Assembly (NCBI GenBank): GCA_035477215.1
Contig: DATIKU010000030.1
Location: 86,299-150,298 of the forward strand
Direction of reading: 5' to 3'
DNA length: 64,000 nucleotides
From: Spirochaetota bacterium
Lineage (GTDB): Bacteria; Spirochaetota; UBA4802; UBA5368
The translations under genes were made by a program, and so were the position numbers. This document shows positions 5,876 through 54,059 of this stretch, one piece after another. Each line of letters starts with the position of its first letter. Position 1 is the stretch's first letter. Under the pieces are notes generated by a model, which worked only from the letters and a program-made list of their open reading frames with translations, searched no databases and was not told the DNA's origin.

Positions 5876-7084
5876 TTACTCGTTTTTCGAACGATGATGA
5901 AGGAGCGTCGCCCGCGTGACCTTCCCCCCGAAACGGTCCCTCATGCTGTCGAGAACGCGTTCGGCGTCTTTCCCGCGATGGTCACGGTCCCCGTTTTTTT
6001 CGGTAGCTTCGAAGAGGTCCAGCTGGCATTCTTCCCGCTCCCCATCGCGCTCGAGGTTCGACACCCTGATCCCCACCAGGCGTACGCGTTTTTCTTTTCG
6101 GTCGAACCCGCGGAAATGCCGAACGGCCGTATTCCGTATGGTCTCCATATCGTTGACGTGTTCTGGAAGCGTCAGGCTTTTCGTGTGCGTCTCGAAACCC
6201 TCAAGGCGTATTTTAAGTGTGACGGTTCTTCCCTTAACGCCTTCCGAACGAAGCTTGTACGACAGAGTGTCGGCGATCCCGAAGAGGACGTGTTCCACGA
6301 TCGCCGCGTCGTCGACGTCGCGTTCAAACGTCGTTTCCTCACTGTACGATTTACGTTCATACTCGTCGCAGACAGGCCTGTCGTCGATACCGTTGGCAAG
6401 CAGCCACAGGTGCTCACCCCATTTCCCAAGCAGTTTCTCCATGCGGGCCAGCGGAACGGAGGAAATGTCGCCGACCCTGTGATATCCCATCGACTCGAGA
6501 TCCCTTTCGGTTTTCCTGCCCGCCCCCCATAACCGTCCGACCGGCAATGGGGCCAGAAACTCTCGTTCGCGCCCCGGCTCGCATATGGTCAGACCGTCGG
6601 GCTTTTGCAAGTCCGAGGCAATCTTCGCAACTGACTTGTTCGAGGCGATACCGACGCTCGCAGTGAGACCGGTGTCACGGCGTATCGCCCGCTTTATGCG
6701 GTTTCCCAGTTCCATTGGTTTGCCGAACAACCCCTCCGTCCCCGTGCAATCAAGAAAGGCCTCATCGATGCTGATCGGTTCGACGAGCGGCGTGAAGGTC
6801 CCCAGCACGTTCATCACAATGTCCGATAATTCCTGGTATCGTTCGAATCGAGGTGGAAGAAATATCGCGCCCGGGCATCGTTGATATGCCCGGGATATGG
6901 GCAGTGCCGAGTGAATTCCGAATACGCGCGCCTCGTACGAGGCTGCGCTAACCACCCCCCTGCCGCGTCCGCCGCGCGGATCCGCGCCCACCACGACGGG
7001 CTTTCCCCGATATTCAGGATTATCAAGCTGTTCGATGGAAGTAAAAAACGCGTCCATGTCGACATGAAGAACCAGGCGCGACAT
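5876..7084 (-). CDS. dinB: DNA polymerase IV (Y-family translesion polymerase)
   Basis: The protein starts MSRLVLHVDMDAFFTSIEQ. Catalytic carboxylates are D8 of HVDMDAFF and the SIDEAFLD pair. The steric-gate region YEARVFGIHS, the thumb helix-hairpin-helix (LWGAGRKTERDLESMGYHRVGDI) and a little-finger domain follow. At 402 aa it is normal for DinB. I chose the ATG at 7084 because GAAGGAGG lies 8 nt upstream; an upstream TTG at 7102 lacks this. The C-terminus ends in a short basic tail without an obvious QL[SD]LF clamp motif, although QLDLFEA occurs near 350 and could serve as the clamp-binding peptide. Confidence 0.95.
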   Translation of the reverse strand: MSRLVLHVDMDAFFTSIEQLDNPEYRGKPVVVGADPRGGRGRGVVSAASYEARVFGIHSALPISRAYQRCPGAIFLPPRFERYQELSDIVMNVLGTFTPLVEPISIDEAFLDCTGTEGLFGKPMELGNRIKRAIRRDTGLTASVGIASNKSVAKIASDLQKPDGLTICEPGREREFLAPLPVGRLWGAGRKTERDLESMGYHRVGDISSVPLARMEKLLGKWGEHLWLLANGIDDRPVCDEYERKSYSEETTFERDVDDAAIVEHVLFGIADTLSYKLRSEGVKGRTVTLKIRLEGFETHTKSLTLPEHVNDMETIRNTAVRHFRGFDRKEKRVRLVGIRVSNLERDGEREECQLDLFEATEKNGDRDHRGKDAERVLDSMRDRFGGKVTRATLLHHRSKNE

Positions 7085-7240
7085 TGCCGCGGCCTCCTTC
7101 AATGTAATAGCAACAACTTAACATATATATAGCACACGTTTGGAATGTCAAAATAAAAACGACTCACCCGCACCACGCGGAACATATACCATCAGGGAAG
7201 CCGAGAGGGTGAAGATCCCGATCCGTTCCGGATACCTTTA

Positions 7241-7765
7241 TTACTTTTCCACCAGAATCCCGTTTAGAAAAGTTCCCTTTAGCTCGCTTCCGTCCGGATA
7301 CGACATGATACCCGTACCATGCATTGTGCCGTCCTTAAAATCGCCGGAATACTTTTTTCCGTCGGACCATACGATTGTTCCCTTCCCGTTGAATTCGCCT
7401 CGCCTGAAATCACCGGTGTATTTCGAACCGTCCGCCTGTATGAGCTCTCCTTTGCCATCCATGACGTTTTCCTTGAATGAGCCGCTGTACTTACGACCAT
7501 CCGGCCAGGTAAGCGTGCCCATGCCATCGATTCTGCCGTAACGGTATTCTCCCGTATATTTCATTCCGTCGGGCCAGCTGTAGTTTCCCCTGCCATGCTG
7601 AACGCTCTTGACAAAGTCGCCCTCATATCGCGCACCATCCGGGAAAATAAACGTGCCTTTCCCGTTGGCGCAATCGCCATTGACACAGCCGGTCTTTTTC
7701 TGCATGGACTCGCAGCCCGATAAAGCCATTGAAACCACCGCAAGTAAAATCAAAGCTTGTTTCAC
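7241..7765 (-). CDS. MORN-repeat lipoprotein
   Basis: This 174-aa protein has a type II signal peptide: MKQALILLAVVSMALSGC, lipobox LSGC with Cys18. The rest is about six MORN repeats of the form (F/W)xDGxxYxGxFKxGxxxGxGxx, for example WPDGMKYTGEYRYGRIDGMG. MORN repeats form an elongated beta sheet often used for membrane or protein contacts. It is expected to be an envelope-anchored scaffold or surface protein; no enzymatic residue is apparent. Divergent from the secreted protein at 7972. Confidence 0.85.
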   Translation of the reverse strand: MKQALILLAVVSMALSGCESMQKKTGCVNGDCANGKGTFIFPDGARYEGDFVKSVQHGRGNYSWPDGMKYTGEYRYGRIDGMGTLTWPDGRKYSGSFKENVMDGKGELIQADGSKYTGDFRRGEFNGKGTIVWSDGKKYSGDFKDGTMHGTGIMSYPDGSELKGTFLNGILVEK

Positions 7766-7923
7766 GAAAACCCTCCTTGAGTCTGATTAAATCCGGAATT
7801 AAGACTGCCACTCCCGTAGCATTGAATATTTTTTAACATAACGAATTCGATGTGGTGTTTCAACAACAAAACGTCGCGGCCATCCGTCAGTCTTTTAAAA
7901 TCTCCTTGACATGATTTTTTTAA

Positions 7924-7947
7924 AATGATGACCATCTGGTCATTATT
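7924..7947. promoter_or_regulatory. Palindromic operator upstream of the 7972-10070 unit
   Basis: ATGACCA-TC-TGGTCAT (7928-7943) is a perfect 7-2-7 dyad. It extends to 11-bp arms with one mismatch (7924-7934 and 7937-7947). It sits 25 bp before the start of the 7972 gene, just downstream of a TTGACA (7906-7911) and before AAAAGGAG. The geometry fits a TetR-type or similar dimeric repressor site. No cognate regulator is adjacent. Confidence 0.5.
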
Positions 7948-7971
7948 TAAAAAGGAGTCAACACTCAATCA

Positions 7972-9168
7972 ATGAAAATCGCCAATCGAACCATTGCGCC
8001 AGCCGTTTTCCTCCGCCTGCGCCCTTTTTTATTCACACTGACTGTCGCCGCCTCGTTTCTGCTCTGTTCCGTGCATGAGCCCGGCGACGCCAGTGATCGG
8101 TCCTCTTCAGTCCGGGTCCCGTTAAAAATCGACGCCCGTTTCGATGAAACCTCACTCTTCCTCGCCGGTAAAGAGATACCCACTACCTCCACGCTTCATA
8201 CATACAGCCAGGGAATGGAATACCAGGCGTACCGCCGTCGAATGGACGCGAGTTGGAACCGTCTTCAGACCGCCAATTTACAGAAGATTGAGGCATGGCG
8301 CGAAAAGCATCTCCCGAAAAAATACACCGATACCGTGTTCTATCCGTTCAGCGGCCCGGACGTCCTCAACGCCCTCGCCTTCTTTCCAAACGGCACCGAA
8401 TACGTCCTGTTCGGCCTGGAATCACCCGGCAGGGTTCCCGATCCTCATGCCCAGCCGCCCGCGCGACTGAACGCCGGACTCTCGGGCCTCAGTGTGGCGC
8501 TCGACAATGTGCTCAACGTCAATTACTTTAAGACCGTTCGCATGGAAAAGGAAGTCAGCACCGACTCCTTCAACAGCATCATCAGCGTAATACTCTTCTT
8601 TCTTTCGCGCAGCGATTACGAAGTGATAGAGGTCAAGAATGTATGGATTGCCGATAACGGCACGCTCACGGACATCGCACCTCTTAAAAAAACCGGAAAG
8701 ACCGTTGCCGGGAGTGAGATCCTTTTCAGGAAGAACTCCTCATCGCCGCTGAAGCGCGTGCGTTATTTCCAGCTCAACGTCATCGACAATTCGCTCAAGA
8801 TATACACCAATTTCATCCCGTATCTCGAAACCTATGGCCGGTATGCCACCATTCTCAAGTCGGCCTCATATCTGATGCACAATGAGGACAAGTTTACGAA
8901 GATTCGCTCGCTCGTGCTCGGCCACAGCGATTATGTTCTTCAAGATGATTCCGGGGCCGCACTCCGCTACTTCCCGACCGATACCTGGAAACTAACGTTC
9001 CATGGCACATACAGCAAACCGGTGCCGCTCTTCGCGAATCGCTACCAGACCGAGCTGGATAATATGATAAAGACGCACTCCACCGGACCGCTTCCATTCA
9101 GCTACGGTTACAATTTCAAGGAAAACGAATCGAACCTTATGTTCGCCGAGCGCATTAAAAAGGAGTAG
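7972..9168 (+). CDS. Exported protein of unknown function
   Basis: This 398-aa protein has a long basic then hydrophobic N-terminus (FLFTLTVAASFLLCSVHE) that could be a signal peptide or a lipobox variant (Cys about 42). The mature part has a helical region (YQAYRRRMDASWNRLQ) and a distinctive FYPFSGPDVLNALAFFP motif near 120, then mixed alpha/beta. I do not recognise a named domain; proteins with the PFSGPDxLNALAFFP motif are known to me only as uncharacterised secreted proteins. An AAAAGGAG tract lies 14 nt before the ATG, longer than ideal, and no better start was found. The esterase-like gene begins 2 bp after its stop, so the two are co-transcribed. Confidence 0.7.
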   Translation: MKIANRTIAPAVFLRLRPFLFTLTVAASFLLCSVHEPGDASDRSSSVRVPLKIDARFDETSLFLAGKEIPTTSTLHTYSQGMEYQAYRRRMDASWNRLQTANLQKIEAWREKHLPKKYTDTVFYPFSGPDVLNALAFFPNGTEYVLFGLESPGRVPDPHAQPPARLNAGLSGLSVALDNVLNVNYFKTVRMEKEVSTDSFNSIISVILFFLSRSDYEVIEVKNVWIADNGTLTDIAPLKKTGKTVAGSEILFRKNSSSPLKRVRYFQLNVIDNSLKIYTNFIPYLETYGRYATILKSASYLMHNEDKFTKIRSLVLGHSDYVLQDDSGAALRYFPTDTWKLTFHGTYSKPVPLFANRYQTELDNMIKTHSTGPLPFSYGYNFKENESNLMFAERIKKE

Positions 9169-9170
9169 CG

Positions 9171-10070
9171 GTGTCGTTACCCGAAAATGGCGATAACTTC
9201 ATTCGCGGCCGGCGCCTATGGACGCTCGTTCTCGCCGCGCTTCTGCTTTTGCCGGCCGCCGCGTGCGCCGAAAGGCCCGACCGGACATTCACCGCGCTGA
9301 ATGCCGGGCTTACGACCGTGGAGCTTCCGGCTTCGCTCGATGCGGCTCTTCCGGCGACTGTTCCTGTTGATATTTTCATACCGCCGCCGGGCGGGCGATG
9401 GGCGGGCGACGTACTGGTGCTTCCCGGATGGAATTTCTCGCGGAGGGAGTGGCATAGCAAAACCACCATCCTGCTCCTCGCGAGAGAACGCGGACTGCGC
9501 ATGGTTTTCCCCGATATGCTTAAAAGCCTCTACGAGTCCCGCTATTATCCTGAAACACTCATGAAATGGGGACCAAGCCCCGGCGGCAGGTGGATACGGG
9601 AGGTTCTCATCCCCGGGATGAGAAAATACGGCATCTTCCTCGAAGGCGGCAACAATTATCTGCTCGGCCTGTCAACCGGTGCCCGCGGCGTCGCCCTTGT
9701 CAGCCTGGAGAACCCGGGGCTCTTCAGGGCCGGAGCGGCGCTCTCGGGCGACTTTGACCAGGCCGCGATGAAGCGCGACAGGCTTATGGCCGCCATGTAC
9801 GGCCCGTATGATCGTTTCCCCGAACGCTGGACGACGGTCGACAATCCGTTGGCCCGTATTTCCGAATGGAAGATGCCGATCTACCTCGGCCACGGTAAAA
9901 AAGACGCCGTCGTGCCGTACGGGCAGACGCACATGTTCTATACCGTTCTAAGGGACGCACACCCGTCATTGCCCGTGGTTCTCAGCGCCCCCGAAAATGC
10001 GGCGCACGATTTCTCCTACTGGCAATCGGAGCTTGAACCCGCTTTCAGTTTTATGCTGTCACTTCGCTGA
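9171..10070 (+). CDS. Exported alpha/beta-hydrolase (putative esterase)
   Basis: The 299-aa protein starts at GTG 9171, immediately after the previous stop. It has a signal peptide (LVLAALLLLPAAACA; an AAAC context makes a lipoprotein possible). Catalytic elements: an oxyanion region VLPGWNF near 85, the nucleophile elbow GLSTGA near 165 (GxSxG), an acid in GHGKKDAVVP near 245 and a histidine in NAAHDFSYW near 280. Order and spacing fit the alpha/beta-hydrolase fold. It acts in the periplasm or envelope; the substrate is unknown. It pairs with the upstream unknown exported protein. Confidence 0.8.
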   Translation: MSLPENGDNFIRGRRLWTLVLAALLLLPAAACAERPDRTFTALNAGLTTVELPASLDAALPATVPVDIFIPPPGGRWAGDVLVLPGWNFSRREWHSKTTILLLARERGLRMVFPDMLKSLYESRYYPETLMKWGPSPGGRWIREVLIPGMRKYGIFLEGGNNYLLGLSTGARGVALVSLENPGLFRAGAALSGDFDQAAMKRDRLMAAMYGPYDRFPERWTTVDNPLARISEWKMPIYLGHGKKDAVVPYGQTHMFYTVLRDAHPSLPVVLSAPENAAHDFSYWQSELEPAFSFMLSLR

Positions 10071-44646: not shown

Positions 44647-45219
44647 TTAGGATGAAGTTTTCCGGAGAGAATTAATTTTTCTTTCCATGCTCGAATATAC
44701 GCATCCGCAGTAGTCCTGCCTGTAAAAGCCGTTTGTCCGGGAAATCTCCACGGACTTTCGGTATCCGTCGTTTTTCTTAAAGTCGGCTTCGAAAAATTCT
44801 ATACCGTACCGACGCTTCAGGCTTCTTCCCGTCTCGTTAAGCATCGCCGCGTCTTTGTGCGGACTCACGGACATGACCGTTGCAACGGCATCGAAGGAAT
44901 TGTCGCGTGCGTACCGAAAGCACTCCTCAAGCCTGTAACGAAAGCAAAACATACAGCGCACCGAGCGCTCGCCTTCAAATCGATGCACTTTAACCGCCGA
45001 AGTCCACTTGCGGGGGTCGTACAGGCCGACAACAAGCGGAAAGCCTCTTTTGACCGAATAGTCTTCAAGCTCGGACAGGCGTTTCGAGTATTCCTTGAAG
45101 GGCGATATGTTTGGATTGTAAAAATATGCGGTTATGTTAAAGTCCTTACCAAGAACCCCGATAACATGGGCCGCGCATGGGGCGCAACAGGCGTGGAGGA
45201 GCAGCGTATCTTTTTTCAC
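44647..45219 (-). CDS. queH: Epoxyqueuosine reductase QueH
   Basis: This 190-aa protein shows HACCAPCAAHV near 9-17, RSVRCMFCFRYRLEECF near 80, SVSPHKD near 113, and FYRQDYCGCVYS near 165. These are the conserved cysteine pairs and motif of QueH (formerly DUF208), which binds an Fe-S cluster and reduces epoxyqueuosine in the last step of queuosine tRNA modification. It follows the 45240 gene by about 20 bp. Confidence 0.93.
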   Translation of the reverse strand: MKKDTLLLHACCAPCAAHVIGVLGKDFNITAYFYNPNISPFKEYSKRLSELEDYSVKRGFPLVVGLYDPRKWTSAVKVHRFEGERSVRCMFCFRYRLEECFRYARDNSFDAVATVMSVSPHKDAAMLNETGRSLKRRYGIEFFEADFKKNDGYRKSVEISRTNGFYRQDYCGCVYSSMERKINSLRKTSS

Positions 45220-45239
45220 GGCGTTGCCGCGCGGGGACT

Positions 45240-45602
45240 TTATTTAAGGTATTTTTTTATAAACTTGTTAAGCTTCTTTGCGTTTTGAGGATTAACCCTG
45301 CCGTCCAGCCATAACAACAGGTTGGTACTGACGCCGTTGACCGAGTCGTACTCATGATGCACAATATAATTGGCCGTGTCATATTTTATCTTTTCAAAAA
45401 TTTCCTCGGCAAGATTGAGATTTTCGGCGTATGGACCGAGCATCTCGCATATTTTGATTATTATCTCATGCTTGTTGATTTCCCTTAATTCGTTTCTACA
45501 AGATTCCGTAAAATAACCCTTGCAGAGGCTTACGTTATCAATAAAGCTTTCCGCCACCGCATATCCACGATTGTCAGCTATTGCCTTGTCTTTGGTGTTC
45601 AT
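45240..45602 (-). CDS. Hypothetical protein upstream of queH
   Basis: This protein has 120 aa from ATG 45602 (GAGGA 7 nt upstream). It is mostly helical, with a conserved-looking region ITDNVSLCKGYF-like (ESFIDNVSLCKGYFTESCRNELREINKHEII) and a basic C-terminus NAKKLNKFIKKYLK. No domain is recognised. It is likely co-transcribed with queH. Confidence 0.55.
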   Translation of the reverse strand: MNTKDKAIADNRGYAVAESFIDNVSLCKGYFTESCRNELREINKHEIIIKICEMLGPYAENLNLAEEIFEKIKYDTANYIVHHEYDSVNGVSTNLLLWLDGRVNPQNAKKLNKFIKKYLK

Positions 45603-45787
45603 CCGCGTTCCTCGCCCATTTTCCAGGTTTAAGCCGGTAAGCACGACAAATTAACTTCATTAATATATCCCCCGCGTGCCGAATTGTCAACAAATTTGAG
45701 TTATTATTAACCCGATCAGACAACATTAATCGCTTTGCATATCGGGCGGTATGGTATATGCTCCTTGCAACAAAACGGAGGTTCCAC

Positions 45788-46270
45788 ATGGAGAGCATAC
45801 ATAAGAGATATATTTCTTTCGATCAGGGCGTGGTGAGCGCGATAATCAATTTTGCGATCAATTTCGCTATCGGATATTTCGTGGCCTTATCGGTCATGCC
45901 GCTTTGGGGCTGGCCGGGCATCGTCGCCGATTCGATGATCATGATTTTTCTGCTGACTTTCCTGACCTGTCTTGTCATCACCTGGACGACGTACCAGAAA
46001 ATCAAACAGAAAAAAATCACCGCACTAACACGACGCAGTGTATCACACCCCGTTCTTAGGCATTTACCCGCAAATTTATGGATAAGGTCGCTTGTCCTGG
46101 GTGTTATCTATCTGTTAGTCCTGACACCGGTTCTCATTCTCGTACTGACCGCGCTCAACGTGGATTCGATGACGTTCTGGCAATTCGTAATTTTCAAGGG
46201 CTCGTTCGCCGGGATTAACGCCCTGCTCGTCGGCCCGCTTTCCGCGTTCATCGCGCTTGGGGACGGTTAA
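45788..46270 (+). CDS. Four-helix membrane protein (DUF2798-like)
   Basis: This protein has 160 aa from ATG 45788, with GGAGG 6 nt upstream. Four membrane segments form two similar pairs. ISFDQGVVSAIINFAINFAIGYF and FVIFKGSFAGINALLVGPLSAFIAL resemble the repeated DUF2798-type helix pair. Function unknown. Confidence 0.65.
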   Translation: MESIHKRYISFDQGVVSAIINFAINFAIGYFVALSVMPLWGWPGIVADSMIMIFLLTFLTCLVITWTTYQKIKQKKITALTRRSVSHPVLRHLPANLWIRSLVLGVIYLLVLTPVLILVLTALNVDSMTFWQFVIFKGSFAGINALLVGPLSAFIALGDG

Positions 46271-46381
46271 ACCTTTCATACAAGCCCGCCCCGTATCACA
46301 GTGTATCACTCCCAGGTCTGCCGGGCTGTCCCTCCGATCGTCCTTCCATCTCCGTCCGCCGCCCCTTGATTCAAAATACTA

Positions 46382-46448
46382 TTGACAAATTTCTACCCAA
46401 TTACTTATATTACACTATGTGGTATATCATTACATTATAGTGTAATAT
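46382..46448 (+). promoter_or_regulatory. Glutamate dehydrogenase promoter with inverted-repeat operator
   Basis: TTGACA (46382-46387), an 18-bp spacer and TATATT (46406-46411) form a good sigma-70 promoter. A perfect 12-bp inverted repeat, ATATTACACTAT (46407-46418) and ATAGTGTAATAT (46437-46448), overlaps the -10 and start site. The 18-mer ATTACATTATAGTGTAAT (46429-46446) matches the aminotransferase-promoter site at all but one position. Confidence 0.65.
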
Positions 46449-46521
46449 TAAAGCCTCTGGTTCTCTTACAATGGATTTCAGGGCGGCGCGCGCCACACCG
46501 ACCACAGGAGGGATGAAAGCC

Positions 46522-49434
46522 ATGCCAAACGATCGGACCACCGACAGGACGCTTCCCCGAGGCATTACGAGTTCCGTATTCACCGGAGAGGATCTCAACC
46601 GGCTCTACGGCATCCTAAGAGGCAATTCCGAGCTGTCCAAATCCACCATCGAGCGCGAGCTGGGGACGGCGCTCCGGCGCCTGGATCAAGGCAGCCATTT
46701 CCTCTCGGGCGACATCCGCGACCTCGGCCTGGGGGTCGAGGAGCTGGCCTTTATCATCGAACACAACCGCTACCAGGAGAAAAGCGCCTGCGCGGACGGG
46801 CAGGCGCCGCGCATCGACGTGCGCGGCGTATTCGAAAACCGGCACCTGTTTTTCATCTCGGAGGATATAGGGCTTTCCACTCGCGTTCTCGAGGACATCG
46901 TGAGCATCCTGAGGCGCGAGCGCGACGCGTCGGCACGGCTTTTCGCCTACCGCATCGGGGGGCCTGGCGGCGAGTGCGATACCCGGGTGCTCTACCTTCT
47001 CTCGGTACAGGAGCGCGCCGTCGGCCGCCGGCCCGGCGCCGTGGCGCGGGACGCTGTGCGCAGCTGCGCCGCCGACCTCGACCTTGCGCTTACGGACGCG
47101 CAGATCGATGAATTCCTAACCTCCGGACTTCCCTCCTCCGTCGCCGAACGGCTCGACCGGGGCGAAGAAAGGGCCGCCGTGCGGCATCTGCGCTCGTGGA
47201 TTGCGATGCGCCTGACGCTTGCCGGCGGCGAGGATATCTCGATCATGGTTGAGGACGCGGGCGCTCCCACCGGCGTCGGGACTTCGGAGCGCCGCGTGCG
47301 CGTCTGCGTTTCGCGCGAGCGCCTCCTCGAGCACCTGAGCACACTGCATCGGGTTTTCGAGCGTCAGGGGCTCCGCTTCATCCGGGAGTACGCGGAATTC
47401 CTTACCGTGGGCGGCCTGGAGTGCGCGTCGGTTTGCGTCTACCTGCCAGCCAGTCTTCTCGAGCCGGGGCTGGTATCGTTCATCCAGGCCGAGCTCTTCA
47501 ACCGGCTCTCGCCGCTTCGGCCCGCGCCCATCTCGGCCTTCGAGGTGCGCGATCTGCTTCGCCGCATGGCCTCCATGGACGACTACCTGAAAATCTCGTT
47601 CATCGACGAGCTCCAGAAAGATCGCCGCAAGGAGTACCTAATGCCGCTGGTGGCGTTGCTCGCCGAGCCGAGCGCCGAGATCCGCGCCAGGGCCTTCGCC
47701 CTGGTGAAGAACTACCTGCTCAACCCCACCCCCGACATGAAGGACGACTACTACTGGTGCACGCTCAAGGACATCTTCTCGGCGGCGTCCGTGCCCTTCG
47801 CGCGCGAGAGGGACCGCGAGAGCAGGCCGCTCACCGACGAGGAGATCGTACAGCTCATCCGCTTCAGCGGCGTGTACTTCGACGACTACGTGGAGCCACT
47901 TACGGGGAAGGGCTTTCTCTTTATAAGGATGGCCGGGCACGGCATCGGCAAGGGCGGCATCCGCGCGCACGAGTCGCACGTCTCGTTCTCGGGCGAGGGC
48001 GCGCTCTCGACCAATATGCTCTTCAAAACCATGGGGATCGGCGTTCCCTTCTACTCCGCGGGCAAGGGCGGCATTCTGGGCGACACCTCATTCCGCGGCG
48101 AGGACGAACAGAAGCGCGCCGCCGCGCGGACAAACGTTTTCCGCGCCTACGCGGACTTTCTGTACTATCGCGCCGGGATCGGCCCGCTTACCGATGTGCC
48201 CGCCGGCGATGTGGGGGTGGGCGGTCCCGAGATCGGCATTATGTTCGATCGCCTCACGCTGAACGTGGGCGCCGACGCCGCGGCGATCGTCAAGAACACC
48301 GACAGCCCCGAGCCGGCGCGCCGCTTGAAGCGGCACTTCGGCGTTCCCGTTTCCGACACCGACCTAATGGCGCGCATCGCCACCGACTTCCCCGCCGCGG
48401 CCGAGTACGCCGCTCCGGCCATCACCGGTAAGCCCGGCGGCCACGGGCTGGCCCTGCGCGCCGGCGCCACCGGGCGCGGCATGGTCGAGGTGCTCGCCGC
48501 GCAGCTCAACTACCGCGACTACCCCGACGCCGCGCTCTGGCTGGACCCCGGCCGCGTGGACGAGGCGCTGGAGCTCGACGCCGAGTACACGCGCCGCTCG
48601 CGCGAGCGCATGTCGCGCCTCACCTTCGCCATCCAGGGCTTCGGCAAGGTGGGCGCCTCCTTCGCCCGCTTCGTCGACGAGATCGGCGCGGCCGTCACCA
48701 TGGTGTCGGACGTGAGCGGCACGGTGCTGCACGGCCGCCGCATACCGAACATCGCAGCCCTGACCGATTTCTGCGCCGGCGGCCGCGCGCTTGGCGACGC
48801 CCCGCCGGACGTGCTGGAGGGCTGTGAGTTCGCGGCCGGAAACACGCTCCTTCCGCTCACCGCGGTGGTGAACGTGGTGGTGCCCTCGGCGCTCGAGAAC
48901 GTCATCGTGTCGTTCGAGCGGCCGCACGCAGGCGCCGTCGGCGCCGGGCGCCTGGCCTGCGAGTACGTGCTCCAGGGCGCGAACGGACCGGTTACCTGCG
49001 ACGCCGAGGACACCCTGGCGGAGCGCGGCATCGTTTCGTTTCCGGACATTCTGGCGAACTCCGGCGGGGTGCTGGCCTCGTACTGCGAGTGGCTTAACGG
49101 GCTCATCCGGCTTAACGGGTACGCGGCATTGCACGGGTACGGTTTCGTTCATCCCATCGTCCACAACATGGTGATGAAGCTCCACCCCGACGCGATGTCC
49201 TCCGACATCCGCACCGTCGACGAGGAAGCGTACCGGAGGGCCTTCAGGTTCATCCTCAGGCACGCGACCGTGGCCACCATAGAGCTCTCGCGCGCGTGCC
49301 GAATATCCATGAAGAGCGCGTACCTCTCGCTCGGCATCCGCGCGGCGGCCGGGGAGGGAAGGCTTACGGAGCGCTTCTCGTTCGTCATGGCGAAGATACG
49401 CGACGGTTTCGCCGGGGGCGCGCGGGCGGTCTGA
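46522..49434 (+). CDS. NAD-type glutamate dehydrogenase, large (about 115 kDa class)
   Basis: This protein has 970 aa from ATG 46522, with AGGAGG 10 nt upstream. The N-terminal half is an ACT-like/regulatory region found only in large GDHs (with DDYLKISFIDELQKDRRKEYL). The catalytic core holds RMAGHGIGKGGIRAHESHVSFSGEG, then VPFYSAGKGGILG with the catalytic Lys, and GDVGVGGPEIG near 590. The NAD domain begins FAIQGFGKVGASFA near 725, and LQGANGPVT and ILANSGGVLASYCEW follow. It deaminates glutamate to 2-oxoglutarate plus ammonia (catabolic). GC content is very high compared with the preceding 4 kb. Confidence 0.9.
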   Translation: MPNDRTTDRTLPRGITSSVFTGEDLNRLYGILRGNSELSKSTIERELGTALRRLDQGSHFLSGDIRDLGLGVEELAFIIEHNRYQEKSACADGQAPRIDVRGVFENRHLFFISEDIGLSTRVLEDIVSILRRERDASARLFAYRIGGPGGECDTRVLYLLSVQERAVGRRPGAVARDAVRSCAADLDLALTDAQIDEFLTSGLPSSVAERLDRGEERAAVRHLRSWIAMRLTLAGGEDISIMVEDAGAPTGVGTSERRVRVCVSRERLLEHLSTLHRVFERQGLRFIREYAEFLTVGGLECASVCVYLPASLLEPGLVSFIQAELFNRLSPLRPAPISAFEVRDLLRRMASMDDYLKISFIDELQKDRRKEYLMPLVALLAEPSAEIRARAFALVKNYLLNPTPDMKDDYYWCTLKDIFSAASVPFARERDRESRPLTDEEIVQLIRFSGVYFDDYVEPLTGKGFLFIRMAGHGIGKGGIRAHESHVSFSGEGALSTNMLFKTMGIGVPFYSAGKGGILGDTSFRGEDEQKRAAARTNVFRAYADFLYYRAGIGPLTDVPAGDVGVGGPEIGIMFDRLTLNVGADAAAIVKNTDSPEPARRLKRHFGVPVSDTDLMARIATDFPAAAEYAAPAITGKPGGHGLALRAGATGRGMVEVLAAQLNYRDYPDAALWLDPGRVDEALELDAEYTRRSRERMSRLTFAIQGFGKVGASFARFVDEIGAAVTMVSDVSGTVLHGRRIPNIAALTDFCAGGRALGDAPPDVLEGCEFAAGNTLLPLTAVVNVVVPSALENVIVSFERPHAGAVGAGRLACEYVLQGANGPVTCDAEDTLAERGIVSFPDILANSGGVLASYCEWLNGLIRLNGYAALHGYGFVHPIVHNMVMKLHPDAMSSDIRTVDEEAYRRAFRFILRHATVATIELSRACRISMKSAYLSLGIRAAAGEGRLTERFSFVMAKIRDGFAGGARAV

Positions 49435-49479
49435 GGCGGCGTGTGCCGGTCCCCGGCGGGCCGGCACATCACGTACGAA

Positions 49480-49513
49480 AAAACGGCGTATCCCTTTCGG
49501 GGTACGCCGTTTT
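49480..49513. terminator. Bidirectional terminator
   Basis: AAAACGGCGTATCCC and GGGGTACGCCGTTTT form a 15-bp stem with one mismatch and loop TTTC. It lies between the convergent glutamate dehydrogenase and aminotransferase genes. Confidence 0.8.
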
Positions 49514-49551
49514 CGTTATGCGTTCGCGGGACCCTGCGCCCGAAGCGGGGG

Positions 49552-50784
49552 CTAATACTTTGCGGCGGTCAGCTTGAAGCACTCGGCCGCGACGTCGACC
49601 GTTTTCTTGATGTCGGCCTCTTCCATGGCCGCGCAGACGAACCAGTTGTGGTGCGGGTGCAGGAAGATGCCGCGGCGCGAGGCCTCGCCGCAGAAGTAGC
49701 GGTTCTTCTCGAACATGGGGTCGTCGGCGAAATTCATGTACGGCATGGCCGGCGGACCGGACATGGTCACCTTTACGCCCGCGGCGGCGGCCGCGTCGGC
49801 GAGGCCCTTCATGAGCTTGGCGCCGAGCTTCTCGATCTTCTCGATCGCGCCGCTCGCCTTGATCTCATCGATCGTTGCCATGGCGGCGGCGAAGGGCACG
49901 CCCGAGAAGAAGTGCGTTCCGGAGAAAAAGACGCTTCCCGCGGCCTGCTTGAGCTCGTCCCTGCCCATGGCGATGGCGATCGGGTAGCCGTTGGCCATGG
50001 CCTTGCCGAAGCACTGGAGGTCGGCGTTGTAGCCGTAGTGGTCGGCGCTTCCCGACAGCTTCAGCCTGAAGCCGCAGCGGATGTCGTCGACGATGATGAG
50101 AAAGCTTTCGCTTTTCGCCAGCGCGTTTACCGTGTCGACGAACTCCTTCGTGGGGAGTTCCTGGTCTTTCATGGAGTCATGGCGGTGCGGGGTCAGGATG
50201 ATCGCGGCGACCTTCCCCTTGTTGGCCTCGACCGCGCGCTTGAGGCCGGCCGGGTCGTTGTACTCGATGTAGTGGATGTGGCTTTTCCACTCGTCGGGCA
50301 CGCCCGCGCCATGGGGCTGGCACCATGGGTGCGCGCCGTGGTAGGAGCCCTTTGCCAGCAGAATCTCCCATTTGCCGGTGAACGCGCGCGCCACCGCGAG
50401 CGAATACGAGGTGACGTCCGAGCCGTTCTTCGCGAAGACGCACCAGTCGCCGCCCTTTATCGTCGAGGTCATCTTCTTCGCCAGCGGGATCCACAGGTCG
50501 CTGGGCAGGGTGAAGCAGTCGGCTTTTTCCATCTGCGCCTTCGCGGCCGCGTCGATCTTCGGGTGTTTGAGGCCCAGCAGGTTGGTGCCGAACGAGCACA
50601 TGTAGTCGATGTATTCGTTGCCGTCGACGTCCCATATGCGGCAGCCCTCGCCGCGCGCGATGAAGGCCGGGTGCGAGCCGAAGGTCAGGAAGTTCGGCGT
50701 GCGCGCCCCATAGATGCCGTTGGGCACGTACTTCTTCGCCTCCTCGAAAAGCGTGTAGGATTTTGTGAGATCATAGAGTTCCAT
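49552..50784 (-). CDS. Class III (GSA-like) PLP aminotransferase
   Basis: This protein has 410 aa from ATG 50784 (AGGGGG upstream); the longer frame starting at 51063 is not supported. It shows WDVDGNEYIDYMCSFGTNLLG near 55, KNGSDVTSYSLAVAR near 120, GSYHGAHPWCQP near 145, the PLP aspartate region IIVDDIRCGFR near 235, and the Schiff-base Lys in QCFGKAMANGYPIAI near 265. It resembles glutamate-1-semialdehyde aminomutase but lacks heme-gene context, so a catabolic omega- or beta-amino-acid aminotransferase is more likely. It shares an operator with the glutamate dehydrogenase gene. Confidence 0.85.
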   Translation of the reverse strand: MELYDLTKSYTLFEEAKKYVPNGIYGARTPNFLTFGSHPAFIARGEGCRIWDVDGNEYIDYMCSFGTNLLGLKHPKIDAAAKAQMEKADCFTLPSDLWIPLAKKMTSTIKGGDWCVFAKNGSDVTSYSLAVARAFTGKWEILLAKGSYHGAHPWCQPHGAGVPDEWKSHIHYIEYNDPAGLKRAVEANKGKVAAIILTPHRHDSMKDQELPTKEFVDTVNALAKSESFLIIVDDIRCGFRLKLSGSADHYGYNADLQCFGKAMANGYPIAIAMGRDELKQAAGSVFFSGTHFFSGVPFAAAMATIDEIKASGAIEKIEKLGAKLMKGLADAAAAAGVKVTMSGPPAMPYMNFADDPMFEKNRYFCGEASRRGIFLHPHHNWFVCAAMEEADIKKTVDVAAECFKLTAAKY

Positions 50785-51216
50785 GCGTTTTCCCCCTAAA
50801 GTGATTATCGTGACAGCCGCTCGTTGGAACGGCACAGTGCGCGTGATGTGTACGCCCGGCGAGGCCCGTGTGCCGGGCATGGTGTCGTGCCGCGCGGCGC
50901 TGCGTGACGGTTCGGCCCGCCGGGGCCGGAAAAAGCGTGCGGCGTGGCGCGTCCGCCTCCGCGAATAAATACGGAGCGCCCGCGCACAAAATGTTGACAG
51001 GCGCGGCGGCGTGACGCACGCTGAAGCACCGGGGCGGCTTCGTCCGGACCGGCACGCCGGCAAACGCGGCCGGGCGCGCGCGGAAGGCGCCGTACGGGCC
51101 GGGGCATGGTGCTTCCGCTCGGCCGGCGGATGGATCGGCCGGAAGTTTCATAGCGCGCGGGTGGATGTCGTTCGCGACGCTCGGTTGCATTTCGTTTTGT
51201 GCTTGCATTTTTATTA
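50785..51216. other. Long GC-rich leader of the aminotransferase gene
   Basis: About 430 bp between the aminotransferase start and its likely promoter (51274). Several open frames occur because of the GC bias, but none has a ribosome site plus plausible protein. I found no recognised riboswitch. Confidence 0.4.
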
Positions 51217-51279
51217 ATTACACAATAATGTAATTAATTATACATTGCTGCAATGTATAGCAGCGTAATGATTTGTCAA
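51217..51279 (-). promoter_or_regulatory. Aminotransferase promoter with two palindromic operators
   Basis: On the minus strand TTGACA (51274-51279) is followed by a perfect 10-1-10 dyad, TATACATTGC-T-GCAATGTATA (51239-51259), and by the 18-mer at 51217-51234, whose minus strand reads ATTACATTATTGTGTAAT. The latter equals the glutamate dehydrogenase site except for one base, in the same orientation and about 40 bp from the -35 in both cases. The exact -10 is masked by the dyad (TACATT with a 16-bp spacer is possible). Confidence 0.65.
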
Positions 51280-51340
51280 TAGAAAAAGTGGCCGGGTGTA
51301 TGAAAATCGGGCTCGGCGATACTGCATAGCACCAGGCGCT

Positions 51341-51453
51341 CATCGCGAGGCGCGCAGCAACATGGCGATCTCAAAAGGCAACGGCTTGATTCATGGAACC
51401 TTGCGGATAGAGAGATTGCCACGCCCCGATACGGCCGGGGCTCGCAATGACAG
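51341..51453. repeat. MITE-like intergenic repeat, copy 1
   Basis: It begins CATCGCGAGG and ends CTCGCAATGACAG, imperfect terminal inverted repeats. Its last 36 bp (51418-51453) are identical to copy 2 (51585-51620) except for one base. Non-coding; a small non-autonomous palindromic element. Confidence 0.7.
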
Positions 51454-51500
51454 TATAAAGCCGGGGACAACGCCTCGATGGCATACGGCATATCTTCTCT

Positions 51501-51620
51501 GTCATCGCGAGGAGGCCGCAGGCCGACGTGGCGATCTCAACAGGCAACAAGCCACTGGCATAAAGCCGGTTGCTGTATGCGAGTGCCACGCCCCGATATG
51601 GCCGGGGCTCGCAATGACAG
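51501..51620. repeat. MITE-like intergenic repeat, copy 2
   Basis: About 120 bp, starting GTCATCGCGAG and ending CTCGCAATGAC. The ends are inverted repeats with one mismatch. Inner GACGTGGCGATCTC near the left mirrors GAGTGCCACGCC near the right. It lies in tandem with copy 1, 55 bp before tetR. Confidence 0.7.
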
Positions 51621-51674
51621 GATATATCCGATACTAATTTCACAACTGAAAGGAGCCGTACCACGGACAGTTCA

Positions 51675-52349
51675 ATGCAAAAGAAACAACGCACCATAAA
51701 AAGCGACGAACGCAAGGCCTGGGAGCGCGAGCAGCGCATGAACAGGATCATCGACATCGTCGAGAAGCTTTTCTTCACCCGCGGGTACGAGGGGACCACG
51801 GTCGACGACATCGCGCGCGCGGCGGGTTACACCAAGCGCAGCATCTATATTTACTTTAAAGACAGGGAAGATCTCTTCCTTGCGGTTGTGAAGCGGGGGC
51901 AGGTGCTCTTCAAGGCCGCGCTGGAGGAGGCGGTCGCGGGGCCCGTTCCGGACGACCAGCCCCTTTCCATCGGACTGGGCCGGGCGTTCTACCAGTTCTC
52001 GCTTGACCATCCCGGGCACCTTGCGCTTCTCATGACCTACGAGTCGAAGCTGTACCGTTACGTCTCCGACCCGCCCGTCTCCGAGGACGGCGACTTACGC
52101 TCGCAGTGCCAGGCGCTTTCGCGCGAGTACGGCGCCATCGTTACCCGCGCCATCGAGCGGGATATCGAGCGGGGCCTCATCCGAACCGGCCGCACCGCGC
52201 GCCAGCTCATGCTGATTCTCTGGGGACAGGTGATCGGAGTGATGCAGGTGATCCTCATGCGGAAGGAGTCGTTTCGCGAGGTCTACGGCATCACCCCCGA
52301 GATGCTCTTCGAGGATTATCTTTCTATGACGCGAAAGTCGCTGCGCTGA
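51675..52349 (+). CDS. TetR-family transcriptional regulator
   Basis: The protein is 224 aa. The N-terminal helix-turn-helix has IIDIVEKLFFTRGYEGTTVDDIARAAGYTKRSIYIYFKDREDL, a full TetR signature. The C-terminal ligand domain (about 75-224) is of the TetR_C type with YxxFSLDHPGHLALL. It probably represses nearby promoters; the shared palindromes at the glutamate dehydrogenase and aminotransferase promoters are candidate targets. A GAAAGGAG lies 20 nt before the ATG. Confidence 0.92.
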   Translation: MQKKQRTIKSDERKAWEREQRMNRIIDIVEKLFFTRGYEGTTVDDIARAAGYTKRSIYIYFKDREDLFLAVVKRGQVLFKAALEEAVAGPVPDDQPLSIGLGRAFYQFSLDHPGHLALLMTYESKLYRYVSDPPVSEDGDLRSQCQALSREYGAIVTRAIERDIERGLIRTGRTARQLMLILWGQVIGVMQVILMRKESFREVYGITPEMLFEDYLSMTRKSLR

Positions 52350-52524
52350 GGTGCCGGACAGTACAACAATCGTAGATGCAAGCGTCACAACCCGTAAGTA
52401 AAACACCCGGACCCCGGTCATACGCGCCGCCCGTGCCGAACGCTCCACACCCGCCAGACTGATCTAATGAATTGACAAAAACCATATAATGCGCAAGATG
52501 TATTGTACCTACCAGGAGGTACCA

Positions 52525-53910
52525 ATGAAACCCACCCAGCCATCCTCGCACGCCGCCGCATTAAAAAAGGTCGCCACGTCCATCAAGCTCGCCTACGGCT
52601 TCGGCGACATCGGCAGCAACATCTTCATCGTAACCTCGGGATTTTTCCTTCTATTCTTCCTTACAAATGTCGTCGGCATCAATCCCGCGCTTGCGGGGCT
52701 CGTGCTTCTCTTCCCCAAGCTGTGGGACGTGGTGTCCGACCCCATTATGGGCGCGATCTCCGACCGAACGCGCTCGCGCTGGGGCCGGCGCAGACCCTAT
52801 CTCCTCTTCGGGGCCCTGCCCTTCGGCCTTTCCTTCCTCGTCATGTTCATCGCGCCCGGCTACGAGTCCGAGTCGGCGCGCGCCCTGCACGTGGCGCTCA
52901 TGTTCGCGCTGGGCTGTACGGCCTTCACCGTGGTCAACGTGCCCTATTCGAGCATGGTGGCCGAGATGTCCGACGACTACAACGAGCGCATGTCGATCAC
53001 CTCGTTCCGGATGATCGGCTCGTCGATCGGGGTTCTCGCGGCCGGGGGACTGGCCATGCCGCTGGTCGGGATGGGAGGCGGCGGCGCGGACGGCTTCCGT
53101 TTCATGGGTATCGTCTTCGGCGCCGCCATCGCGCTCATCACGCTGGTGTGTTTCATGGGTACAGGCCGGGCAAGGACGCTTCCGGTAAAGGACATCACGC
53201 CCCCGGCGCGGGAGCAGATCCGCATCGCGCTGAAAAACCGCCCGTTCATCATGCTCATGGCGAGCTACATGCTGCAGTCGACCGGCATCGGCGTGCTGAT
53301 GGCGGGGCTCATCTATTACATAAAGCACGTCATGATGCTTCCCGAGACAGCCATGGGGGTGGTGTTTCCCATACTGTTCGGCACCGCGATCGTGTTCATA
53401 CCGGTGTGGGTAAAAATTGGTAAAAAACTCGGAAAGATCCGCGCCTACCGGATCGGGCTGGCGATCATCTGCGTAATGCTGGTGTCGACGTTCTTCACGC
53501 AGGCGTCGCAATTAATGCTGTTTTATGTACAGGTGTTTTTGCTGGGCATCGGTTTTTCGAGCTTCCAGCTCTTTCCGTTCTCGATGCTTCCCGACACCAT
53601 CGAATACGACGAGATGAAGTCGGGCATGCGGCGCGAGGGGATTTTCTCCGGCGTGTGGGCCTCGGGGCAGAAGATGGCCTATTCGGTCGGCCCGGGCATA
53701 ATGGGCTTCGCGCTGGCGCTCTCGGGCTTCGACGCCTCCGGGCCGCAGGGCGCGAACGTGGCCACCGGCATTCGTATCGCCTTCTGCCTGCTTCCTGCGG
53801 CGGCACTTTTACTGAGCTACATTCCGTTCGGCGCGTACGACCTCACGGAAGAGAGGTTCGAGGAGATCAAGAGGACGATCGCCGGGAAGGGGCCGGGGGG
53901 TATGCGATGA
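52525..53910 (+). CDS. GPH-family (glycoside-pentoside-hexuronide type) cation symporter
   Basis: This protein has 461 aa from ATG 52525, with AGGAGG 6 nt upstream. It has 12 membrane segments. KLAYGFGDIGSNIFI opens TM1, DPIMGAISDRTRSRWGRRRPYLLFGA is the diagnostic GPH loop, and LFPFSMLPDTIEYDEMKSGMRREGIFSG is the equivalent of the second-half motif. These are sodium- or proton-coupled symporters of sugars, and in some cases other solutes. It follows tetR by 175 bp. Confidence 0.88.
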   Translation: MKPTQPSSHAAALKKVATSIKLAYGFGDIGSNIFIVTSGFFLLFFLTNVVGINPALAGLVLLFPKLWDVVSDPIMGAISDRTRSRWGRRRPYLLFGALPFGLSFLVMFIAPGYESESARALHVALMFALGCTAFTVVNVPYSSMVAEMSDDYNERMSITSFRMIGSSIGVLAAGGLAMPLVGMGGGGADGFRFMGIVFGAAIALITLVCFMGTGRARTLPVKDITPPAREQIRIALKNRPFIMLMASYMLQSTGIGVLMAGLIYYIKHVMMLPETAMGVVFPILFGTAIVFIPVWVKIGKKLGKIRAYRIGLAIICVMLVSTFFTQASQLMLFYVQVFLLGIGFSSFQLFPFSMLPDTIEYDEMKSGMRREGIFSGVWASGQKMAYSVGPGIMGFALALSGFDASGPQGANVATGIRIAFCLLPAAALLLSYIPFGAYDLTEERFEEIKRTIAGKGPGGMR

Positions 53911-54059
53911 GCGTTCCGGCGGGATTGTTCCTCGTCGTTCCCACCTGTGTTCTTTCGCTCTCGTGCGGATCGACCGGCGACTTCCAGGCCGGCGAGGCCG
54001 CGGAGGGTGACGCGGACCCATCACTCTATTTCTCGCGGAAGGGCGGCACGTCCCGCTGA
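53907..54059 (+). CDS. Possible small lipoprotein
   Basis: This 50-aa frame starts MSVPAGLFLVVPTCVLSLSC with a lipobox-like LSLSC, then a short acidic tail. Its ATGA overlaps the transporter stop, and GGGGGG lies 6 nt upstream. The short length and GC bias mean it could be spurious. Confidence 0.35.
   Translation: MSVPAGLFLVVPTCVLSLSCGSTGDFQAGEAAEGDADPSLYFSRKGGTSR

Follow-up and report, generated by a model that had tools for sequence, protein, structure and literature searches.

Among the described systems, AmtR of Corynebacterium glutamicum is functionally the closest to the locus presented here. AmtR is a TetR-family regulator which controls gdh, with the inverted repeat CTAT-N6-ATAG as its binding site (PMC8864220). 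The likeness lies in the TetR-family control of gdh together with nitrogen-source genes via an inverted repeat with a 6-bp spacer. AmtR is, however, a global regulator of about 30 genes and is released by GlnK, while the TetR protein of our locus was connected to two promoters only (two sites in 3.57 Mb). The operator is also different: the half-sites are ATTACA/TGTAAT instead of CTAT-N6-ATAG, and the sites stand in tandem with 20-bp spacing. AmtR was not among the structures matched by the TetR sequence. With the local TetR repressors of the FadR and AibR type the locus has in common the gene arrangement seen in relatives, the placing of the operator over the promoter, and the fold, whereas operator sequence, target enzymes and the constant pairing of sites set it apart. 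The third system of relevance is FumI from the fumonisin-degrading Sphingopyxis, which acts on a long-chain amine and moves the amino group to pyruvate (PMC2933618). FumI (PDB 6hbs) is the closest solved relative of the aminotransferase described below, over nearly the full length (E 1e-96), but comes from this fumonisin degrader and uses pyruvate. Literature searches on the motif, on DUF819 together with TetR, and on TetR/glutamate dehydrogenase/aminotransferase regulons in Spirochaetes returned nothing on the present system, and an earlier sequence-only reading had likewise called the regulon undescribed. It is a new regulon of an ordinary kind.

The window, i.e., the whole 64-kb stretch of DNA analysed, belongs to a spirochaete metagenome-assembled genome (G000). 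The sequence-only reading had proposed that one operator, present as two 18-mers which differ in one base and each lie about 40 bp from a TTGACA, links a glutamate dehydrogenase (GDH) to a class III aminotransferase (AT). The features of the region are given below, with the basis of each in parentheses; G003 and G004 are genomes of relatives.

46382..46387, + strand: −35 box TTGACA of GDH (sequence; same box in G004)
46405..46410, + strand: −10 box TTATAT of GDH, 17-bp spacer, overlapping the first operator (sequence; CTATAT at the equivalent place in G004)
46409..46426, + strand: GDH operator O1, weak, ATTACACTATGTGGTATA, 20 bp upstream of O2 (fifth in the window by matrix)
46429..46446, + strand: GDH operator O2, ATTACATTATAGTGTAAT (genome scan; first in the window with an independent matrix)
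46522..49434, + strand: large GDH of 970 aa, ELFV family, ATG at 46522 after AGGAGG (domains; G004 orthologue 84% identical)
49552..50784, − strand: class III aminotransferase, GSA-aminomutase/FumI-like, convergent with GDH (domains; 92% identical in G003 and G004)
51217..51234, − strand: AT operator O2, ATTACATTATTGTGTAAT (genome scan; second in the window with the independent matrix)
51237..51254, − strand: AT operator O1, weak, ATTGCAGCAATGTATAAT, 20 bp from O2 (stronger G003 counterpart ATTGCATAATAGTATAAT)
51252..51257, − strand: −10 box TACATT of AT, 16-bp spacer (sequence; TATATT in G003)
51274..51279, − strand: −35 box TTGACA of AT (sequence; same in G003)
51340..51625, + strand: dispersed repeat in two copies, between the AT operator and TetR (about 40 genome matches; absent from the 200-bp G003 interval)
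51675..52349, + strand: TetR-family regulator, proposed repressor of AT and GDH (domain, orthologues, predicted structure)
52472..52477, + strand: TTGACA upstream of the GPH gene; in G003 an operator comes next, of which the window has a degraded form (sequence, G003 comparison)
52525..53910, + strand: GPH (MFS_2) cation symporter, possible regulon member (domains; 87% identical beside TetR in G003)

Both 18-mers were found where they had been reported, each behind its TTGACA box and, when read in the sense of the downstream gene, different from the other in one base. The gap between TTGACA and 18-mer is 41 bp at GDH (box starting at 46382) and 39 bp at AT (box starting at 51279 on the minus strand). 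That the two share an orientation, as had also been said, is true, but carries little information for a palindromic site, and both 18-mers are palindromic. At up to three mismatches the 3.57-Mb genome has no site other than these two, so the scan suggested earlier hit no unrelated promoters; 100 dinucleotide shuffles of the 64-kb window gave no match at the same threshold. A looser search with ATTRCA-N6-TGYAAT at one mismatch returned mostly noise, near the level of the reversed-pattern control, and among the G000 matches listed none stood out apart from the known sites and the partner site at AT. What the sequence-only reading had overlooked is that both promoters carry, at exactly 20 bp from the main site, an additional and weaker copy (O1, with scores of 8.0 and 2.1 bits in the two promoters). 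An Rfam search of 45000-54000 gave no match.

The TetR gene and the GPH transporter gene, both noted earlier as neighbours, are present as open reading frames. The TetR protein has an N-terminal helix-turn-helix (TetR_N, PF00440, 57.4 bits against a cut-off of 24), and its AlphaFold2 model (pLDDT 89.6) is predicted to be all-helical, with ten helices and a TetR-like core; the best PDB matches of the model were TetR-family regulators. As usual in this family, a palindromic operator is found at the own or neighbouring promoter in G003, G001 and the distant relatives. In the window the operator is found only at the promoter of the neighbour, AT, 400 bp away, none being found at the start of TetR itself, so that autoregulation may have been lost. 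The wide distance is due to the two copies of the dispersed repeat, with a unit of about 110 bp, which intervene between the AT operator and TetR. As for the transporter, its inclusion in the regulon was only partly borne out: in G003 the GPH gene has the operator TTTACACAATAGTGTACA right behind TTGACA, whereas the matching stretch of the window is degraded.

Within the family the operator is conserved in G003, G001 and G004, with TTGACA and the register of the sites retained. In G003 the TetR orthologue (81%) begins about 30 bp from the −35 box of the divergent AT (92%), and the interval between the two genes contains the palindrome together with its partner at 20 bp. The TetR (72%) and AT (78%) genes of G001, another genus, are likewise divergent and flank ATTACACTCTAGTGAAAT. 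The GDH orthologue of G004 (84%) has ATTGCATTAGAGTGTAAT in front of it, with the partner 20 bp further upstream; next after GDH comes AT (92%), convergent as in the window, and the contig ends inside this gene. A TetR orthologue was not detected in G004, an assembly which is 80% complete. GDH orthologues from other families, those of G049, G166 and G144 (46-49% identity), had no convincing upstream site; control of GDH is therefore seen only in G000 and G004. One further motif match, in G002 (C465) near neuB-like and transposase genes, was read as chance.

Outside the family, TetR orthologues at 40-49% identity were found in nine further genomes of two classes. Most of them are divergent from, or located beside, genes for a DUF819 transporter and a PLP-dependent decarboxylase of the MfnA/GAD kind, and the intervals carry tandem TTTCACTATAGTGAAA palindromes, e.g., TTGACAATTTCACTATAGTGAAATATTATTCACTATAGTGAAATATATGGAGG in G122; in G144 the pair is degenerate. 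From 16 sites of these distant orthologues, none of them from the window's own family, we built a matrix and ran it over the 64 kb. The main sites of the window came first (26.8 bits) and second (22.6 bits), the next best match reaching 13.5 bits; the upstream GDH copy O1 was fifth. Of 393 genomes in the phylum, 12 have a TetR orthologue, and 8 of these carry the exact motif, versus 16 of the 381 without the orthologue (Fisher p = 2e-8, kinship ignored). In seven of the eight genomes the exact site lies beside TetR or, in G000, at the proposed target, and in the eighth, G144, it lies elsewhere, inside a gene. Sites, pairing, promoter position, conservation and association with TetR orthologues are all read from DNA sequence. 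Since the same palindrome follows the TetR orthologues across the phylum, the TetR protein encoded at 51675-52349 is very probably the regulator, as the sequence-only reading had suggested, and would act as local repressor of AT and GDH. The shared operator linking the two enzyme genes is supported by its uniqueness in the genome and its conservation in relatives. Other genome-wide matches to the distant motif that we examined were mostly intragenic or beside genes unrelated to TetR. An exception is G014:C58 (L200 3663), where a tandem operator precedes a secreted protein of 1261 aa with Big_5 and clostripain domains; this clostripain-like protein is a possible extra target.

The rather regular operator geometry is the most distinctive trait of the regulon. 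Best and second-best site are exactly 20 bp apart in 12 of the 14 promoters that are TetR-linked or belong to GDH, and, counted from the first base of TTGACA, sites occur near +7, +26 and +46. The first site occupies the −35/−10 spacer in G122, G014 and G136, while in the GDH promoter of the window it overlaps the −10 box and the second site lies beyond. Judged from these positions, placement over or just past the −10 box is what would be expected of a repressor. Since a shift of 20 bp corresponds to roughly two helical turns, two dimers would share nearly one face, and they may bind cooperatively. We lean towards the view that the proteins constitute a new TetR subfamily whose dimers bind in pairs along a 20-bp lattice, at a fixed register relative to the −35 box. 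Such a module would have been reused in Spirochaetota for different PLP enzymes, i.e., the decarboxylase with DUF819 in most lineages and the FumI-like aminotransferase in the family of the window, with the large GDH newly added in G000 and G004.

Both enzymes were assigned by their domains. GDH has the ELFV N and C domains (PF02812 and PF00208, both above cut-off), and it is an additional enzyme, since a second, ordinary GDH is encoded elsewhere in the genome (G000:C49:79621). AT has the Aminotran_3 domain (PF00202, 143.8 bits); assignment as HemL, the glutamate-1-semialdehyde aminomutase, was rejected at 215.5 bits, far under the equivalog cut-off of 527.3. In the AT tree, where close groupings were read from rows other than the G004 fragment, AT of G001 grouped with the AT2 paralogues, so the pairing of regulator and enzyme is not strictly orthologous.

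For the regulation as a whole we infer repression, an inducer and a pathway, and consider the following scheme highly likely. Two TetR dimers would sit side by side on the tandem 18-bp palindromes, 20 bp centre to centre, which overlap or follow the −10 box at the AT and GDH promoters, and would block RNA polymerase. The repressor would come off upon binding of a small molecule, probably the substrate of AT or its product, and AT and the large GDH would then be made together. AT would then transfer the amino group to an oxo-acid, and GDH would free it as ammonia, with regeneration of 2-oxoglutarate either directly or, if the acceptor is pyruvate, via alanine-glutamate exchange. The proposed 2-oxoglutarate cycle between the two enzymes is plausible, and together they are very probably a repressor-controlled pair for degradation of an amine or amino acid.

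The alternatives differ widely in probability. Pairs of 18-mers at up to one mismatch are not rare in themselves, with about a dozen other clusters in the 64-kb window, and one could take the GDH and AT sites for a chance pair in AT-rich promoters. The chance of this is negligible, as the pair is exceptional in that its members are both palindromic, located in promoters and conserved in relatives; uniqueness in the whole genome, the sites in G003, G001 and G004, and the recovery of both sites by the independent matrix contradict chance. It is also improbable that the palindromes belong to a regulator encoded elsewhere, with the adjoining TetR as a bystander. Unrelated regulators can share sites, and in the window some 400 bp lie between TetR and the AT operator, with no site at TetR itself, but the motif goes with the TetR orthologues, in the interval next to them, in different families and classes, while G002, G005, G006 and G007, which have no close orthologue, showed no paired site at the AT promoters examined.

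Other alternatives accept the TetR protein and concern its mode of action or its signal. Some TetR proteins activate, and the main sites of the window lie downstream of −10, so TetR could be an activator, or the sites could be roadblocks independent of any inducer. We regard this too as improbable, and slightly more so than the bystander, since the sites overlap −10, fill the −35/−10 spacer or lie just downstream, which is typical of repression. A further alternative concerns the signal only and is compatible with the preferred repressor model, namely an acyl-CoA, another downstream catabolite or a long-chain amine in place of an amino acid. For such a signal speaks that the predicted TetR fold is closest to several acyl-CoA-binding regulators, e.g., FadR and AibR, and that AT is closest to the amine transaminase FumI. 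The fold similarity is, however, too broad (TM 0.5-0.7, about 20% identity) to define the ligand, and amino acids are suggested by the PLP decarboxylases found under this regulator in other genomes; we hold a signal other than an amino acid for a real but less probable option.

With the repressor model, a DNA motif and a target set are assigned to a TetR subfamily without known function in uncultured spirochaetes, and the DUF819 transporter family and the FumI-like aminotransferase family are tied to one regulator. The substrate becomes findable through a ligand screen on one small soluble protein.

Several observations were made beside the main locus. The genome encodes a paralogue of AT with 76% identity, AT2 (L120 about 7050-9654, G000:C53:190308 region), whose promoter has another palindrome, ATGAA(C/T)GGTATTCAT, behind TTGACA, and which has another TetR gene downstream. 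AT2 with its TetR is a parallel local regulon. AT2 paralogues were considered as members of the present regulon and rejected, as their palindrome differs (ATGAA..TTCAT) and some have another TetR; close TetR orthologues share the recognition-helix stretch Y(T/N)KR, while the TetR beside AT2 is without KR. In Smithella-like genomes and one spirochaete (L009, L010, L011, L014, L015, L016, L017, L007), AT comes directly after a DUF819 gene, of the same transporter family that adjoins TetR orthologues elsewhere. In a genome titled Deltaproteobacteria (L030, 6227-9248), the genes for an AT (52%) and a PLP decarboxylase are divergent, the latter sharing 60% identity with its spirochaete counterpart, and this links both enzymes. 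Two open reading frames upstream of GDH, 45240-45644 and 45758-46270, had no Pfam match, and the latter is kept (81%) beside GDH in G004.
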